The translations under genes were made by a program, and so were the position numbers. The notes beneath the pieces were generated by a model, which was not told where the DNA came from, did not search any database, and saw only the letters and a list, made by a program, of their open reading frames with translations. Positions 35,043-42,576 of a DNA stretch of 64,000 bases are shown one piece after another. This DNA is from Pseudomonadales bacterium (GTDB lineage: Bacteria > Pseudomonadota > Gammaproteobacteria > Pseudomonadales > Azotimanducaceae): positions 124,001 through 188,000 of the forward strand of contig JAQXDL010000044.1 of the NCBI GenBank assembly GCA_029251375.1, in the 5' to 3' direction. Position 1 is the first letter of the stretch. The number at the start of each line of letters is the position of its first letter.

Positions 35043-35924
35043 ATGACTGATCACAAAATTAAATCCGAAGATGGCCGATGCTTAAGTTTTGCTGATTTTG
35101 GTAAGCCAGATGATATCGCCGTATTGTGTTGCCATGGTGGCCCTGGTTCAAGACTTGGATTGCAGTCTATTGCTGGGCAGGCCATTGAGAAGGGTTTTCG
35201 GCTTATTGGGATCGATCGACCTGGTTACGGTGAATCATCGGTTAACCCTGGCCGAAGTATTTGTGATTGGACCGAGGACGCCCTGGCGATTGCTGATCAT
35301 TTAGGTGTGCACAAGTTTTTAACAGTGGGTCTATCAACCGGCGGCAGTTACGCGCTGGCGACAGCGGCTGTTGCGTCAACGCGGGTAATGGGTGTGCTGG
35401 TTGGCTGTGGCATGTCTGATATGCGTTGGGCGAGTAACGTTGAAGAAGCCAGAATGAAGGGTGCTGAAGCCATTTGGCAGGCGGCGGATCGAGATGAAGC
35501 CATTGCGATTGCGTTAGAGCAATTTGGCGAACAGGGCGAGAAGATGCTTGAGGTCGATCCGGATGCGGAGCCGGTGCTTAGTCCTGCTGATTTGGCCTTT
35601 GTAATGGAACCTAACTATGGTGCGAATGATCCAAATAATGAACCTTTCCGTCAGGGTGTCGTGGGTTACGCGGATGATAGGATCGCAGACGGTCCAAAAA
35701 ATGGCTGGTCTAGTTTTGATATCAATGCAGTTGTCTGTCCAGTGTCTGTTATTCATGGAGAGCAGGATTGGATTGTACCGATAGCACATGCCCACCACAC
35801 AGCGAGTTTACTCGGGCAAGTGCAATTGAAAACCTTTCCTCAACACGGCCATTTGAGCTTAGTTGTAGAGTTAGTTGATGCATTGACAGGATTGATCGAT
35901 CGCGTCGAACCTACAGCTATTTAA
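35043..35924 (+). CDS. Alpha/beta hydrolase
   Basis: A 293 aa hydrolase-fold protein. The oxyanion-hole loop is CCHGGPGSRLG (30-38), the nucleophile Ser98 lies in VGLSTGGSYAL, the acid is probably Asp in GEQDWIVP, and the His in TFPQHGHLSLV (~268-270). HGGPGS-type loops occur in proline iminopeptidases and ester hydrolases. A GTAAGTAACT precedes the ATG. It sits 46 bp before a VOC gene on the same strand. With three monooxygenases in the window, it could cleave their ester or lactone products, but that is inference. Confidence 0.92.
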   Translation: MTDHKIKSEDGRCLSFADFGKPDDIAVLCCHGGPGSRLGLQSIAGQAIEKGFRLIGIDRPGYGESSVNPGRSICDWTEDALAIADHLGVHKFLTVGLSTGGSYALATAAVASTRVMGVLVGCGMSDMRWASNVEEARMKGAEAIWQAADRDEAIAIALEQFGEQGEKMLEVDPDAEPVLSPADLAFVMEPNYGANDPNNEPFRQGVVGYADDRIADGPKNGWSSFDINAVVCPVSVIHGEQDWIVPIAHAHHTASLLGQVQLKTFPQHGHLSLVVELVDALTGLIDRVEPTAI

Positions 35925-35970
35925 TTGTTGTCCGCTTAGTCGCTTCGGAGGAGATGAAACAATACAAGAC

Positions 35971-36342
35971 GTGCGCAATGGCTTCAGCGCTGTTAGGCCT
36001 TATGTTTATGGTCCCCATAGCATTCTAGCGTTTGTCACAAATGCTCTAGTTGGCAAAGTGCTGGTCGAACACGAGCTGGGCGGCAATGCCAATCATATTG
36101 AGGTGAAGCTTAGTGACTCCGTGATCGTGTTGGAGTTGTGCGATCCGCCGCATGCATCATGTTTGTCGGGCTCTATCTATGTCTACGTACCGAATGTTGA
36201 TGCTGTCGTAAGTCGCGCCGTGGATTGTGATGTTGAGGTATTTTCTGCCGCCGAAGACAAACCCTATGAAGAGCGTCAGGTAGGTGTCAAGGACGCTTAT
36301 GGCAACGTCTGTTGGGTTGCGACCTATCAACCCAACAGCTGA
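35971..36342 (+). CDS. VOC family protein (PhnB-like)
   Basis: A ~123 aa VOC-fold protein. The sequence FSAVRPYVYGPHSILAFVTNALVGKV, then HIEVKLSDSVIVLELCDPP resembles the PhnB-type group. The GTG at 35971 is the first standard start in frame, but the strong GGAGGAG (35947-35953) sits 17 nt upstream of it, too far; an ATA at 35962 would be at the ideal distance. It is 46 bp after the hydrolase and convergent with the next VOC gene. Function unknown. Confidence 0.72.
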   Translation: MRNGFSAVRPYVYGPHSILAFVTNALVGKVLVEHELGGNANHIEVKLSDSVIVLELCDPPHASCLSGSIYVYVPNVDAVVSRAVDCDVEVFSAAEDKPYEERQVGVKDAYGNVCWVATYQPNS

Positions 36343-36354
36343 TTTCCGCCTACG

Positions 36355-36867
36355 CTATTCCAAACGGGGCCACTTCTCTAGGTGTACCTGTAGTAACTCG
36401 ATCAGCGTGCCGTCGGGGTCGATGCAGGTGGCGATTTCTGCTAGACCATCTTTTGCGATCTGCGGTGGGCTGATAAATTCAACACCTTGTTTAACAAGTT
36501 GCTCGTAATCTGTATTGAGATTTGCTGAAGCTAGACAAATTCTAACCAAGCCAAGATCTGCGTTGTTTAAGGGTTTCGCTTGAAATCTTTGCGAGATGTC
36601 AGAAAACTCCGTTAGGTCTATTTTCGGAAAGCCATTGTCTAGTTGCATGATGCAGGCTCTTGCGGTTGATTCATTGGGCAAGCCTAGCGCAGTATTGCTG
36701 GCAGTATCGATGGGCTTTGGATCGACTTCAGCAGTTATGCCTAGATAAGGTATCGCTGGAATAAACGACTCGAAGCCCAGCTTTCTGTAGAACTCGATAG
36801 AATTCTCGAGGTTGCTTACGTTGATATTGATATGGCCCCACCTTAGTTTCATCGCTTGATCGGTCAT
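36355..36867 (-). CDS. VOC (glyoxalase fold) family protein
   Basis: A 170 aa protein with N-terminal LRWGHININVSNLENSIEFYRKLGF, the classic VOC first beta-alpha-beta unit, and a closing PPQIAKDGLAEIATCIDPDGTLIELLQ. The middle is longer than in simple VOC proteins (insert around residues 50-100), so it may be a two-module member with a divergent first module. Convergent with the VOC gene at 35971, separated by 12 bp. Function unknown. Confidence 0.87.
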   Translation of the reverse strand: MTDQAMKLRWGHININVSNLENSIEFYRKLGFESFIPAIPYLGITAEVDPKPIDTASNTALGLPNESTARACIMQLDNGFPKIDLTEFSDISQRFQAKPLNNADLGLVRICLASANLNTDYEQLVKQGVEFISPPQIAKDGLAEIATCIDPDGTLIELLQVHLEKWPRLE

Positions 36868-36960
36868 TGTCTGTCTCTATTCGGTTGAGGGTTTAAGGAA
36901 GTAGATGATCGTTTAGGGCGTGATTGTGCAACTTATGTTGTGTGTATCTAATGCAACAAC

Positions 36961-36986
36961 GATGCACAACAACGATGCACAACAAC
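36961..36986. repeat. Two-copy 13-bp tandem repeat
   Basis: GATGCACAACAAC occurs twice in a row (36961-36973, 36974-36986), with a degenerate copy just upstream (AATGCAACAAC at 36950-36960). The 253 bp gap between the VOC gene and the dehydrogenase shows nothing else. Confidence 0.6.
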
Positions 36987-37120
36987 AATTTCGGCAGCAA
37001 TGCCCAGCAGCAAAAATGGTGAGCGCCGATATCATTGATTAAATGTATCGGCACCTAGTTGGCTATTTTGCGTAAGAGGCGGTGCAGAGTTGGTGCAAAG
37101 TATAGTGGTCAAAATCTGTC

Positions 37121-38311
37121 CTAGTTATGTAGGCTCTGATAGGCGCTATCTCCTATTTTCCCCGCAACCTTTGAACCTAGATCATGGGCAGCGATGACAC
37201 CTCTCAGCGCAACAGACTTCGTAATTTCCATAGGCATGTTCGCAACGGTTGCATACTCAGATGTCTCTTTTGCTAACAGGTTGAGAGATGCTGTGTCTGA
37301 TACCTCGATGGACAATTGTCCAAGATGAATAGGTAATCCGACTTTGGCAAAAAATTCTGCCGCCTTGTTAGCTTCGTCAACATCGCCTTCGATCATCAAT
37401 TGAGTCAGAACACCCATGGCAACCATCTCGCCGTGCAGATAATTGGCATGAACGATGGGTAGGTTTGTGTAACTCTGGGCGATTGCATGGGCGACCGCCA
37501 GGCCACCGCTTTCGAATCCTAAACCGCTAAGTAGTGTATTGGCTTCAACCACTTTTTCGAGCGCTTCATCAACCCGATTGGCTTTAACAGATTCCACAGC
37601 CGCCTCACCAACGGCATACAGGGTCTCAGCACAAATAGTACTAATTGCGTTCGCTGCAAGCGTGGGGCGCGTTCCCATAATCGTGGTTGCATTCGGATTA
37701 TTTAGACAAACTCGCGCTTCGTACCATGTTGCCATTGCGTCTCCAATACCAGCGACAAGGTAGCGGGTTGATGCGTTTGCGACAACTTGGGTATCGACAA
37801 TGACAATTGCCGGATTCTGTGGAAAGAACTCAGCACCGCTTGAAACTCCGTCCGGGGTGTATAACACTGAAACCGCGGACGTCGGCGCATCATTGGATGC
37901 GAGTGTGGGAACGATTACAACATCAATGCCAAGTCGGTAAGCAATGCACTTGCCTGCATCGACGCATTTGCCGCCACCAACGGCAATTAAACAATCGACA
38001 AACTTGTCTGAAAACGCTTCAACCTGCTTGTCGATTTCTGCTAGGGAACACTCGCCATCAAACGCGGATGTATGTACCTCAAGCCCCTTCGCTTCAATAC
38101 TATTAATAACCGTCTTAGCATCGGCTTTTAAACCGCGCGATGAGGCCAGAATGCCAACTCGCTTTGCGCCGAGTAGCTGCAGGTACTTGCCTGTGTTGGC
38201 TAATACGCCTTGACCTTGGATATAGCGCTGCGGTGCAAGCAGGACGCGGGGCGCAGGTCCTTTTCTATTGGCATAAATTGTCTGGGGAAAAAATAATGGC
38301 GCGTCTCTCAT
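37121..38311 (-). CDS. Glycerol dehydrogenase-like (GldA) iron-containing alcohol dehydrogenase
   Basis: A 396 aa NAD-dependent, metal-dependent dehydrogenase of the GldA branch. The NAD-binding GGGKCVDAGK, PTLASNDAPTSAVSV, the metal Asp in GIGDAMATWYEA and the two metal His in GLAVAHAIAQSYTNL and NYLHGEMVAMGVL are all present. The N-terminus RVLLAPQRYIQGQGVLA is typical of GldA. Expected to oxidise glycerol, propanediol or related diols. It is divergent from the DUF3604 gene. Substrate not assignable from sequence. Confidence 0.92.
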   Translation of the reverse strand: MRDAPLFFPQTIYANRKGPAPRVLLAPQRYIQGQGVLANTGKYLQLLGAKRVGILASSRGLKADAKTVINSIEAKGLEVHTSAFDGECSLAEIDKQVEAFSDKFVDCLIAVGGGKCVDAGKCIAYRLGIDVVIVPTLASNDAPTSAVSVLYTPDGVSSGAEFFPQNPAIVIVDTQVVANASTRYLVAGIGDAMATWYEARVCLNNPNATTIMGTRPTLAANAISTICAETLYAVGEAAVESVKANRVDEALEKVVEANTLLSGLGFESGGLAVAHAIAQSYTNLPIVHANYLHGEMVAMGVLTQLMIEGDVDEANKAAEFFAKVGLPIHLGQLSIEVSDTASLNLLAKETSEYATVANMPMEITKSVALRGVIAAHDLGSKVAGKIGDSAYQSLHN

Positions 38312-38607: not shown

Positions 38608-40521
38608 ATGATTATAAAACGAACCCTGCTTAATATCGCAATACTGTCAGCCGCCGCCTCTGGAGCGATAGCATCTACCGGTAGTGATGACGATGCAGTC
38701 AAAAAATATTCGCCGATGGCCAACACGAGTCATGCAACCAACGTATATTGGGGTGATTCTCATTTGCACACCGGATTGTCTTTAGATGCTGGACTGTTTG
38801 GCAATACGCTCGGACCAGACGATGCTTATCGTCTTGCTCGTGGAGGCAAAGTGATGGCGTCAAGCGGCACGCCCGTTCAACTCGCGCGCCCACTAGATTG
38901 GCTTGTCGTGGCAGATCATACTGATTTAATGGGTATCGCTGCAGACATAAAAAATGGTTCGCCGAATATACTAGCGGATGACATGAGCAGAGGTTGGCAT
39001 GAGGGTTTCGTTGAAGGTGGACAAGCTGCGGCCGAAGCAGCTTTTGATCTTATTGGTAAGTTTTCGCAAATGACTTTGCCAGAACAAATCGTCAGTGATT
39101 ATAGCCCAGGCTCTGAAGTCTTCGGCGGGGTTTGGGAAGACATCGTTAACTCAGCTGAAAAGCATAATGAACCCGGCTTATTCACGGCATTCATTGGTTT
39201 TGAATGGACTTCTGTGCCAAAAGGCTTCAATTTGCATCGTAACGTTATTTTGCGTGAGGGTGCGGAGACAGCACTTAAGATTCAGCCACCGACAACGCAA
39301 CCGCCCTTAGGTAGTACAAATCCAAAGGAATTGTATAAGTGGCTGGAGATGTATGAAGGTGAAATTGGTGGTCAGGCGTTCGCCTTTGCCCACAATGGTA
39401 ATTTGTCAAATGGTTGGATGTTTCCCACGGAAGGCACTTACCATGGTGGCGTCGTTGATAATGAATATGTGACGCAAAGAGCAAAGTGGGAACCGCACTA
39501 CGAAATCACTCAAATAAAAGGTGATGGCGAAGCCCACCCCTATTTGTCACCGGATGATGAATTCGCTGATTATGAAAATTGGGAAGTCGGTAATCTTGAC
39601 ATTAGCCAGTTGAAAACACCGGACATGTACAAGGGTGAGTACGCTCGTGAAGCTCTTAAGCAAGGTCTGGTATTGGAAGCTAAATTTGGTATCAACCCTT
39701 ATAAGTTTGGGGTAGGCGGCGCGACGGACAGTCATACGGCATTAGCGACCGCTGATGAGAATAATTATTTTGGTAAATCTACCAGTGTCGAGCCTTCCAA
39801 AGATCGGGTGACTCATCCGTTTGCAAGTTCCGAGCTTGGTATTTTTGAGGGTTATGCGCTCGTCGCCTCTGGCTATACAGGTATCTGGGCGCATGAAAAT
39901 ACACGGGCGGCACTATTTGACGCAATGGAGCGTAAAGAAACCTACGCGACAACGGGACCTCGTATGGAGGTTCGATTCTTCGGTGGTTGGGATTTCAATA
40001 ATAGCGATGTTTACGAAAACAATGCTGTTGACATAGGTTACGAGAAGGGCGTGCCGATGGGAGGTGATCTTACAGCGCAAGATAATGCAAAGAGAGCGCC
40101 AAGCTTTATGGTTTCTGCATTAAGAGACCCGCTCAGTGGTAATCTGGATCGTGTTCAGATCATTAAAGGCTGGCTGGATAGTGAAGGTGAAGTCCACGAG
40201 AGAGTTTACGATGTTGCGGTCTCTGATGGGCGAAGAATTAATAGGAACGGTAGAGCGAAAAAGACAGTTGGCAACACAGTAGATCTTGATACAGCAACTT
40301 GGAGTAACAGCATCGGTGATCCGCAATTGTCAGCGGTCTGGACAGACCCTGATTTCAACGCGGCTGAGTCGTCTTTTTACTATGTGCGTGTACTTGAAAT
40401 ACCAACGCCAAGATGGGTTGTCTATGACAAGATTAGATTAGGTGCTGAAATTCCTGAAGAGGCGGAATTGATTGGACAGGAACGTGCGTATACATCACCT
40501 ATTTGGTATTCGCCGAAATAG
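38608..40521 (+). CDS. DUF3604 exported protein
   Basis: A 637 aa exported protein. Residues 1-23 ([16 protein letters not shown]) form a signal peptide. The opening [19 protein letters not shown] has the Asp-x-His-x-His pattern of metal-binding PHP-like phosphoesterases, followed by [12 protein letters not shown] and later [31 protein letters not shown] and [14 protein letters not shown], each supplying further His and Asp candidates. The C-terminal beta region ([42 protein letters not shown]) is family-typical. The role is unknown; the metal pattern suggests a periplasmic hydrolase. It is followed by a terminator and then by the PpiC-like/HupE-like pair. Confidence 0.93.
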
Positions 40522-40571
40522 TTTTCAGGTCGATAGCTGGCTTTTTTAATTTAGCCTTAAACGTTTGAATG

Positions 40572-40600
40572 AAAAATCCGCTCTCTAGGCGGATTTTTTT
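40572..40600 (+). terminator. Rho-independent terminator after the DUF3604 gene
   Basis: AAAAATCCGC (40572-40581) pairs with GCGGATTTTT (40589-40598) across a 7-nt loop, with the 3' arm running straight into the T-run. It separates the DUF3604 transcript from the PpiC-like gene that starts at 40676. Confidence 0.9.
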
Positions 40601-40675
40601 ATCCGGCTACCAGTTTGTTTAAACGCAATTTTCATATGGACCTTTTTGTTTAGGTTGAAGGAAGCGAATAAGAAA

Positions 40676-41590
40676 ATGTTAAAGAAAATTTTCTCAGAGC
40701 CACTGTTACACTTTATTTTTCTGTCGCTAGTTATATTCGTTGCCTATGGCTTTCTAAACCCTCGCCAGGATAATCAACAGGTGATTGTTGTCAGCGAAGG
40801 GCGCGTCGCTCAGATTAGTAACAGCTTTCGTGAGCGTTGGAAACGAGACCCATTTCCTAAAGAGCTGGACGGGGCCATACAGGCCTATGCGGTAAATGAA
40901 ATGTTCATTCGAGAGGCGAAGGCACTAAGTCTTGATGCGGACGACCAGGTTATTGATCAACGACTAAGAAAGAAAATGAATTACCTGTTGGAGGATCTTG
41001 CTGATGCTAATCGGCCGACGGAAAACGCGCTAAAGCAGTTTTATGATAACAATGCTGAGAAGTATCGTTTGCCTGCGAGATACAGTTTCCAACAGGTGCT
41101 ACTTTCTGCTGATAGAGAAGAGCCGGCGTTATCCAAAATGGTATTGATTCAAAAAAAGCGAATCGAACAGGGGTTCGATCCGCAGGGTGATACCAGCATG
41201 TTGCCTCGCGACTTAACACGCGTTTCAACCGATCAGCTGGCTCGTCGATTTGGCGGGGTGTTCGTAGACGCTTTAGCTGACATCGTTACACAGCAGTGGT
41301 CGGGACCGGTTGCATCGGCATTTGGTCAACACTTTGTTTTTATCATCGAAAAAGAATCTTCAGAAATACAAAAATTTGAAGCGGTTAAAACTGCCGTGCT
41401 AAGTGATTGGCAATACGACAATAACAAAAATTTCCAGAAAGATTATGAGGCACGCCTGCTGCAGCGTTACACAATTGTTGTGCAAGGCGCTGATTCGGTT
41501 TCGAGTGATGAAGATAGCAACGCGGACAAGGAAACTGCGAAAAAGCCCGATACAGTGCCCACGGCCATGACCGAGAATATATCTCCATGA
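40676..41590 (+). CDS. Membrane-anchored PpiC-like peptidyl-prolyl isomerase
   Basis: A 304 aa protein. An N-terminal helix (LLHFIFLSLVIFVAYGFL, ~10-27) anchors it in the inner membrane facing the periplasm. A SurA/PpiC-like N-domain with many Arg/Lys precedes the rotamase region (~105-220), which carries RYSFQQVLLSAD and the late RRFGGVFVDAL, FGQHFVFIIEK. The C-terminus is acidic and Lys-rich. The first ATG at 40676 starts at the membrane segment; a TTG at 40646 would add ten residues. It overlaps the HupE/UreJ-like gene by 4 nt (ATGA), so they are translationally coupled. The 'EPLLHFIFL' opening is typical of this gene pair. Confidence 0.86.
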   Translation: MLKKIFSEPLLHFIFLSLVIFVAYGFLNPRQDNQQVIVVSEGRVAQISNSFRERWKRDPFPKELDGAIQAYAVNEMFIREAKALSLDADDQVIDQRLRKKMNYLLEDLADANRPTENALKQFYDNNAEKYRLPARYSFQQVLLSADREEPALSKMVLIQKKRIEQGFDPQGDTSMLPRDLTRVSTDQLARRFGGVFVDALADIVTQQWSGPVASAFGQHFVFIIEKESSEIQKFEAVKTAVLSDWQYDNNKNFQKDYEARLLQRYTIVVQGADSVSSDEDSNADKETAKKPDTVPTAMTENISP

Positions 41591-42576
41591 AGTTAGGCAT
41601 GTTTCTCTTGGGTATGATTTTCAGTGCGTGTTTGTGGGCTGATGATTTAAGACCCGCTTCGCTAACAATCCAACAGGTGCAACCGTTTGCGTTTGATATC
41701 AGCTGGACAGTACCTTTGAAAAATGGTGTGCGACCTGATTTTTCTGTGAAGTTTTCGGGAGATTTTCGACAAACCAGTCCTAAAATTGCTCGACGATTAA
41801 ACAACACCAGCCGAGAAAACTGGAGGATTGAAAGTAACGATGCGGCAGCAGGTCTTGCGGGAGAAACAATAACGATTGTCGGACTGCGAGGCTCTACCTA
41901 TGAAGTGTTGCTGAGGTTGGTTGACGAAAACAGTCAAACAATCACGGCGGTTCTCAATACCGACAAACCAGATTATGTTGTGCCCGCAATAGATTCGGTT
42001 GAGGGCGAGAATAGTATTATTGCCTATATCGGTTTGGGGATAGAACATATTCTCATTGGTCTTGATCACTTATTGTTTGTCGCCTGTCTGGTTTATATTT
42101 CGGGTACGCGAAGAAAGCTTTTGCTAACGATTACTGGATTCACGATCGCGCATTCTGTCACGCTGATTCTTGCCGCGACCGAAGTTTTAGTTATCCCGAT
42201 TCCACCGGTCGAAGCAGTGATCGCATTAAGTATTGTGTTTCTTGCTTGGGAGATCGCAAAAAATCGCGAGGCCAGTTTGAGCTTGAAATATCCTATTTTG
42301 GTCTCGTCATCGTTCGGACTGTTACATGGCTTTGGTTTTGCATCGGTGTTAGCTGATATCGGTTTGCCTGAGGGTGAAAAGTTATCAGCACTATTGTGTT
42401 TCAATATCGGTGTTGAGATAGGCCAACTGCTTTTTGTTACATCACTATTTTTAGTATTCTGGAGTTTGAAGAAACTATATCAGCCCTTATCAATGCAAAT
42501 GTTGCGCTTCCCAACAAGCTATTCCTGTGGTGTGCTCGCAACGTTTTGGATGTTCGAGCGGCTAGCGTCTTTTTAA
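41587..42576 (+). CDS. HupE/UreJ_2 family membrane protein
   Basis: A 329 aa protein with a signal peptide (1-19), a ~130-residue periplasmic beta-rich domain, and about six C-terminal membrane helices. The membrane part has IGLGIEHILIGLDHLLFVACLVY, TITGFTIAHSVTLIL and SSFGLLHGFGFASVLADIGLP, matching HupE/UreJ_2, whose relatives are proposed metal (Ni) transporters; the His residues in GIEHIL, GLDHLL, TIAHSVT and LHGFGF could bind metal. Gene context with DUF3604 and PpiC is unexplained. No hydrogenase or urease genes lie in the window. Confidence 0.9.
   Translation: MKLGMFLLGMIFSACLWADDLRPASLTIQQVQPFAFDISWTVPLKNGVRPDFSVKFSGDFRQTSPKIARRLNNTSRENWRIESNDAAAGLAGETITIVGLRGSTYEVLLRLVDENSQTITAVLNTDKPDYVVPAIDSVEGENSIIAYIGLGIEHILIGLDHLLFVACLVYISGTRRKLLLTITGFTIAHSVTLILAATEVLVIPIPPVEAVIALSIVFLAWEIAKNREASLSLKYPILVSSSFGLLHGFGFASVLADIGLPEGEKLSALLCFNIGVEIGQLLFVTSLFLVFWSLKKLYQPLSMQMLRFPTSYSCGVLATFWMFERLASF

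Follow-up and report, generated by a model that had tools for sequence, protein, structure and literature searches.

A DUF3604 gene linked to genes for a parvulin-type protein and a HupE/UreJ-2 protein: a possible folding and metallation module for an exported enzyme

Closest described systems

How exported enzymes acquire their metals is less clear than for cytosolic enzymes. In Bacillus subtilis, the TerC proteins MeeF and MeeY export Mn and co-precipitate with SecDF and PrsA, and they have been proposed to metallate enzymes during translocation (PMC10550928). Here, we describe three genes in a 64,000-nucleotide stretch from a Pseudomonadales bacterium (Azotimanducaceae; contig JAQXDL010000044.1, positions 124,001 to 188,000), hereafter called the window. 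They encode a DUF3604 protein (D), a membrane-anchored parvulin-type peptidyl-prolyl isomerase (P) and a HupE/UreJ-2 protein (H). We propose, with a probability of roughly 0.55, that P and H form a dedicated, partly trans-acting module for the folding and metallation of D, which would resemble the TerC and PrsA proteins and would most likely use zinc.

Compared with the described systems, the locus has several shared and several distinct features. Like MeeF/MeeY with PrsA, for which metallation of exported enzymes was proposed (PMC10550928), it combines a membrane metal protein with a parvulin-type chaperone. Unlike that system, H belongs to the HupE_UreJ_2 family, the P-H pair is found in Gram-negative bacteria and is encoded and co-occurs with one client family, and its metal is probably Zn rather than Mn. 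The anglerases Ang-1 and Ang-2 (PMC12537917) share with H the signal peptide, the periplasmic beta-sandwich and the HupE_UreJ_2 membrane part, and the closest fold reported for Ang-1 is also ZrgA (8F1B). They are described with an N-terminal His, whereas the H of the window has Asp at mature position 1, and its periplasmic domain is of about 120 aa against about 175 aa. The main text of that paper names DUF4198, indigoidine A-like, PfkB, metallophosphatase and DUF916 proteins as neighbours of anglerases. Neither DUF3604 nor the word prolyl occurs in the main text, but the commonest neighbours there have no assigned function and are not named, so that DUF3604 may be one of them. The zinc-regulated systems ZrgABC and PA4063-PA4066 (PMC9820375, PMC11481552) share the fold of the periplasmic domain and, with two Bacteroidota loci described below, a separate ATPase and a MacB-type permease; unlike our cluster, no parvulin, HupE part or PHP enzyme is mentioned in their available descriptions, and the function of PA4063-PA4066 is disputed. 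Finally, D resembles the PHP phosphoesterases 2anu, 3e38, 3o0f, PsfC (7rty) and RNase AM in fold and in the motif set HxH, DH, H and DxH, but differs from them in being exported, in its size of about 600 aa and in its C-terminal Ig-like domain. Among 5.39 million papers searched (most subscription papers lying outside), the word DUF3604 was found in PMC11925237 only, and no description of the D-P-H linkage was found. By this literature, the families involved, the dedication to one client and the variant with an ABC transporter and a ZnuA-family protein appear to be new; a process of this kind has already been described for TerC and PrsA.

The exported enzyme and its two candidate partners

All three genes lie on the forward strand, D at 38608-40521 (637 aa), P at 40676-41590 (304 aa) and H at 41587-42576 (329 aa), and their coordinates and Pfam matches agree with the placement in an earlier sequence-only reading of the window. 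For P, the open reading frame list gave a TTG start at 40646, and the ATG at 40676 fits the N-termini of the aligned homologues. The stop of P and the start of H overlap by four bases (ATGA, 41587-41590), in line with the coupled pair of that reading, and the terminator that it placed between D and P was found on the forward strand at 40571-40599 as an intrinsic-terminator-like hairpin with a 12-bp stem and a U tract. This hairpin was read in the sequence and is not among the calls of a consensus terminator scan; 7 of 200 shuffled sequences folded equally well (z -2.3).

D matches DUF3604 (PF12228) with 795.3 bits (cut-off 20.4) over profile positions 3-591 of 591, and its N-terminus carries, by eye, a Sec-type signal peptide without a twin arginine. 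A rough pattern test of 59 N-termini gave 2 twin-arginine-like and 12 lipobox-like sequences, with some start sites misassigned. When the D of the window was aligned with 58 of 64 non-redundant homologues, H52, H54, D97, H104, E199, H210, H262, D374 and H376, together with D60, were invariant in all 59 sequences. The motifs DSHLHT, VVADHTD and ATDSHTALA hold H52, H54, H104, D374 and H376, and D97 just precedes the second motif. In PHP proteins, the motifs follow in the order HxH, D/E-H, E, H and DxH; judged from this order, the nine invariant His, Asp and Glu residues are putative metal ligands. The metal-type motifs that had been noticed in an exported protein are thus present, and their ligand-type residues are conserved throughout. 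An AlphaFold model from the 59-row alignment (pLDDT 93.2, pTM 0.91) predicts a PHP domain at about residues 44-452 and a C-terminal Ig-like sandwich at about 452-637. Using structural alignment, the model was matched to 3e38_B (Z 16.0 over 229 residues), 2anu_A (Z 15.9 over 214), PsfC 7rty (12.7), 3o0f (11.0) and RNase AM (9.5 and 9.1), and the rows below the PHP and polymerase entries (PolC, Pol III) scored Z 7.0 or less. At E<=0.001, the only Foldseek match was 2anu_B. When the PDB was searched with the D sequence up to E=1, no PHP chain was listed, and one 30-residue match to a lectin was obtained. Together, the model and the motifs support D as an exported metallohydrolase of the predicted PHP fold, and it is probably a phosphoesterase. 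Because its signal is of the Sec type, D is probably translocated unfolded and metallated outside the cytoplasm. The nearest relative (L071, from a record titled Alteromonadaceae) has 72% identity, and a search of the phage collection gave no match to D at E<=1e-5.

P matches Rotamase_2 with 42.2 bits (cut-off 27), and PrsA is likewise a parvulin. At the aligned position that we take to be the first active-site His of parvulins, 16 of 23 sequences have Gln and 7 have His (counted by eye), and since Gln prevails there, P may act as a chaperone more than as an isomerase.

H matches HupE_UreJ_2 (PF13795) with 146.7 bits (cut-off 24.5), and at E<=0.001 only this family and HupE_UreJ were matched, with no match to TerC (PF03741). 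It begins, by eye, with a signal peptide, followed by a predicted ZrgA-like beta domain at about residues 20-137 and a membrane part, so the periplasmic domain ascribed to it in the earlier reading is retained. In contrast, the description of H as His-rich is contradicted, as four of its 329 residues are His. None of the four varies among the 24 aligned H sequences. H154, D160, H161, H189, S190, H247 and G248 are invariant in the same sequences, as are the motifs HX5DH, AHS and LHG of the membrane part; HX5DH is known as the nickel-permease motif. In the model (pLDDT 86.2), H is a predicted many-helix membrane protein. The best structural alignment of its periplasmic domain is to zinc-binding ZrgA (102 residues, Z 10.6, rmsd 2.5), followed by PA4063 (Z 9.9), and no other row exceeds 7.6. 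Foldseek gave no match to the H model at E<=0.001, and the likeness to ZrgA comes only from this second structural alignment, which barely covers the membrane part. After an AxA-type cleavage site placed by eye, 19 of the 24 H sequences continue with His and 5 with Asp. The Ang-1 structure 9GCE was not listed in a PDB search with the H profile up to E=1.

Linkage and co-occurrence

The linkage of D with P-H is not due to chance. Using one D query, 80 loci were kept of 143 genome loci encoding a relative, and P-H lies within 1.5 kb of D on the same strand in 32 of them (28 downstream and 4 upstream; H is truncated by the contig end in L030 and L042). The other loci include 5 with P farther off or on the opposite strand within the fetched flanks, 22 that lack P although both flanks reach at least 2.5 kb, and 21 too short to judge. 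By record label, the 32 linked loci belong to Pseudomonadota (21), Bacteroidota (4), Myxococcota (2, titled Deltaproteobacteria), Planctomycetota, Gemmatimonadota, Acidobacteriota and Thermodesulfobacteriota (1 each), with 1 unassigned; several are metagenome-assembled genomes (MAGs), in which binning errors are possible. The gene order varies (D-P-H, P-H-D or divergent) while the linkage persists. When the neighbours in 85 loci were clustered, P was found in 35 and H in 32 loci, and no other cluster exceeded 8; the next clusters were represented by an ABC ATPase (8 loci) and a sulfatase (7 loci). Random gene order, which had been named as a refuting outcome, was therefore not found across genomes, and linkage or co-occurrence is strong in several phyla. 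Similar clusters extend beyond the marine proteobacteria named in the sequence-only reading and are also present in Bacteroidota, on rhizobial plasmids and in records labelled Planctomycetota, Gemmatimonadota and Acidobacteriota.

P-H was also found where it does not adjoin D. A whole-genome search covered 24 genomes without P-H at the D locus, namely those of the 22 loci without P and of the Bacteroidota loci L009 and L026, where P is about 5 kb from D; it left out the 21 short loci as well as L022, L043 and L053. P was detected in all 24 genomes (weakest best E 2.6e-35) and H in 22, adjoining P in 20 of those 22. In five genomes (G152, G153, G154, G159 and G164), a P-H pair at a different place does have a D within 1.5 kb. 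Among eleven P-H places inspected, ten (L271-L280) have no D within the stretch. Ten neighbours were annotated at seven of these places; most have no evident relation to P-H (galactokinase and nitroreductase, for example), but a CbiX-domain protein (L278) and a metallo-beta-lactamase-fold protein (L271) are among them. P-H is thus a unit that follows D also where the two are not linked.

The same search for D, H and P was applied to 143 genomes of the class of the window (Gammaproteobacteria), each listed genome having its own family code. D was found in 15 at E<=0.001, 9 of them with at least 100 bits. P (E<=1e-25) was found in 7 genomes and full-length H in the identical 7, all with a strong D, and none of the 134 genomes without a strong D had P (Fisher p 1.7e-10). 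Four further genomes matched H in the membrane half only, and the whole PF13795 family occurs in 41 of the 143. Among 149 genomes of the class to which G166 belongs (a record with the title Robiginitalea), 4 have D with at least 600 bits. Two of the 149 have P (E<=1e-20), each together with D (Fisher p 5e-4), and one has full-length H. Among 72,556 plasmids searched, 78 had D and 77 had P; in the 69 D and 69 P records listed, D and P share 57 records, on the same strand in all 57 and with starts at most 4,516 bases apart. Annotated plasmids of Rhizobium, Ruegeria, Sinorhizobium and Pseudoalteromonas carry genes named DUF3604, peptidylprolyl isomerase and HupE/UreJ, and one plasmid has P-H without D in the 15 kb shown.

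In the host genome of the window, there are six DUF3604 genes and three P-H pairs, each pair adjoining a D. One DUF3604 copy (G000:C16:20145-21866, L160) has two in-frame TAA stops and is probably a pseudogene. On contig C11 (L158:3354-10802), the genes for DUF3604, a metallo-beta-lactamase-fold protein, DUF3604, P and H follow in that order, so that a second type of metallohydrolase stands within a P-H cluster; a metallo-beta-lactamase-fold protein is also encoded in L150 and L151, and in L151 a sulfatase gene directly adjoins P. Upstream of D in the window (35043-38311) lie genes for an alpha/beta hydrolase (forward strand), a glyoxalase-family protein (reverse) and a GldA-like iron-type dehydrogenase (reverse), the last divergent from D. 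A distant DUF3604-like family of 750-780 aa is encoded divergently from its own P-H pair in two loci (L144:5212-9411 and L145:5521-9901), whose P proteins score under the threshold of the co-occurrence counts. In another genome (G012:C2:46141-46476), a match to the DUF3604 N-terminus adjoins a match to the C-terminal half of HupE, with one 333-aa open frame reported for both, as if the middle of a D-P-H operon had been deleted.

Proposed maturation model, metal and alternatives

As P and H match the roles of PrsA and TerC in outline, we propose that D is folded and metallated during or after its translocation. D would be exported by its Sec-type signal (as a lipoprotein-like form in some relatives), and P, anchored in the membrane, would hold the unfolded D as it leaves the Sec translocon. 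With its ZrgA-like domain in the periplasm and its His/Asp site in the membrane, H would bind a transition metal, most likely zinc, and pass it to the PHP active site of D, and a single P-H pair may serve several D genes or paralogues in trans. The sequence-only reading had suggested assembly of a periplasmic metallo-hydrolase; the model of D agrees with a PHP-type metallohydrolase, and the folding and metallating roles of P and H are well motivated but conjectural.

The choice of metal is guided by two Bacteroidota loci, L009 (Carboxylicivirga) and L026 (Robiginitalea MAG), in which the genes after P encode, in this order, a membrane protein (755 or 717 aa), an ABC ATPase, a MacB-like permease, a ZnuA-family protein that has a loop containing His, and D. 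The family of the ZnuA-like protein was assigned by Pfam in L009 (110.7 bits), and the L009 and L026 proteins share 37% identity. Of the two membrane proteins, that of 717 aa retains the periplasmic domain of H (63.8 bits) and, by eye, lacks the HupE metal motif; that of 755 aa still matches HupE weakly (37.8 bits against a cut-off of 24.5). ZrgB and PA4064-PA4065 are likewise MacB-like (PMC9820375, PMC11481552). That D has a ZnuA-family protein beside it when the metal site of HupE is degenerate, as seen in these two loci, is the strongest hint of a metal-supplying role of H, with zinc as the metal. With the MacB-type ABC and ZnuA-family genes between P and D, and with the ZrgA-like domain of H, zinc is favoured. 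More tentatively, at somewhat less than even odds, we suggest a stricter form of the proposal, in which DUF3604 enzymes would need P and H, often acting in trans, for their activation at the Sec exit, as a Gram-negative counterpart of TerC-PrsA. In the Bacteroidota version, the HupE metal site would be degraded or lost, and the MacB-type ABC transporter and the ZnuA-family protein would take over.

Nickel or cobalt is less favoured than zinc for H, with two neighbours that are cobalt- or nickel-flavoured. One is a CbiX-domain gene of the cobalt-chelatase type just 5' of P-H (L278:4336-5262), and the other is annotated as a dipeptide/oligopeptide/nickel ABC ATPase (L287). A nickel role by analogy with hydrogenase HupE was considered and is less likely, as no annotated neighbour is named as a hydrogenase or urease gene. 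In two Rhodobacteraceae plasmids (L287 and L289), genes for a CobW-type GTPase (COG0523) and DUF1826, presumably of the zinc-regulon type, lie near P-H, and L289 also has short DUF3604 and HupE pieces; since these genes occur in only 2 of 120 loci, their link to the cluster was rejected. Of the 120 loci that exceed 8 kb (some of these lack D), 11 have a sulfatase match, in several lineages; as a count without a baseline, this is a side observation.

Several observations weigh against the proposed maturation of D by P and H with zinc. The terminator-like hairpin parts D from P-H in the window, and the H of the window does not have the first residue of anglerases. Other HupE/UreJ-2 proteins are proposed metal uptake devices that bind Cu and Ni, and zinc slightly destabilised Ang-1 (PMC12537917). 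PA4063-PA4066 was proposed to export pyochelin-cobalt, with no direct handling of zinc (PMC11481552), and the CbiX-domain gene at L278 hints at cobalt or nickel in place of zinc. Homology between HupE and TerC is not established, because HupE is not named among the LysE-superfamily families in the available text of PMC4608589. Four genomes (G011, G093, G175 and G220) have D without the specific P, with 37.5 bits as the best score of a permissive P search; the assemblies of G011 and G093 are in draft form, with about 190 and 430 contigs, and an H fragment of 100 aa is present in G093. The genes also fall on separate contigs in G138 (D-P and H) and G005 (D and P-H). Finally, the 57 plasmids are not independent, because they are mostly from related Rhizobium and Sinorhizobium strains.

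Three other explanations were weighed against maturation of D by P and H. The best-surviving one, which we nevertheless consider unlikely, is that H is a metal importer on the anglerase model, with a periplasmic domain that captures metal and passes it on to the cytoplasm, with P helping D and H to fold, and with D as a nutrient-scavenging hydrolase for metal shortage. HupE/UreJ-2 proteins with N-terminal metal-binding domains have indeed been proposed as uptake systems (PMC12537917), ZrgA is needed for zinc import in Vibrio cholerae (PMC9820375), and the CobW-type GTPase and DUF1826 genes near P-H in two plasmids would fit. However, general uptake fails to explain why P and H accompany D in genomes where they are not linked to it (P in all 24 searched), and while generic HupE_UreJ_2 proteins occur in 41 of the 143 class genomes, the P-linked subfamily in that sample is found only with D. 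A second explanation, that H moves the substrate or product of D, by import or export, rather than a metal, with P as the foldase of D or H, is suggested by a predicted many-helix membrane protein encoded with an exported hydrolase, but is improbable given the metal-type residues of the membrane part (H154, D160, H161, H189 and H247), the likeness of the periplasmic domain to zinc-binding proteins and the ZnuA-family protein adjoining D in two loci. Least probable of all is co-travel of D, P and H in a mobile catabolic or envelope island without mutual action, since the many plasmids and the spread across phyla resemble horizontal transfer but P and H stand out from every other neighbour (35 and 32 of 85 loci against at most 8), their linkage persists under varying gene order and P-H is kept in the genome when unlinked.

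Another class of HupE_UreJ_2 proteins, of about 390 aa, has two recurrent neighbours among about 20 loci inspected. In 5 of them (L106, L109, L114, L119 and L179; four divergent and one co-directional), it lies next to a metallophosphoesterase of the 5'-nucleotidase type, with a weak Tat-signal match below the cut-off in both that were scanned. In 8 (L104, L105, L112, L113, L115, L117, L171 and L182), four of them with DUF4331, it lies next to a TPR protein. Other HupE/UreJ-2 types may likewise be tied to exported metalloenzymes.

For the DUF3604 family, a client family and its candidate metallation factors can now be named together, and they occur in Ruegeria, Sinorhizobium and Rhizobium strains. 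Because D, P and H often stand side by side in such strains, the question of how exported enzymes are metallated becomes directly testable there. If our proposal is true, it would offer a first entry point to DUF3604 and would assign one HupE/UreJ-2 subfamily a function through its partners, and P-H would be a counterpart of TerC-PrsA in Gram-negative bacteria that is devoted to one widespread enzyme family.

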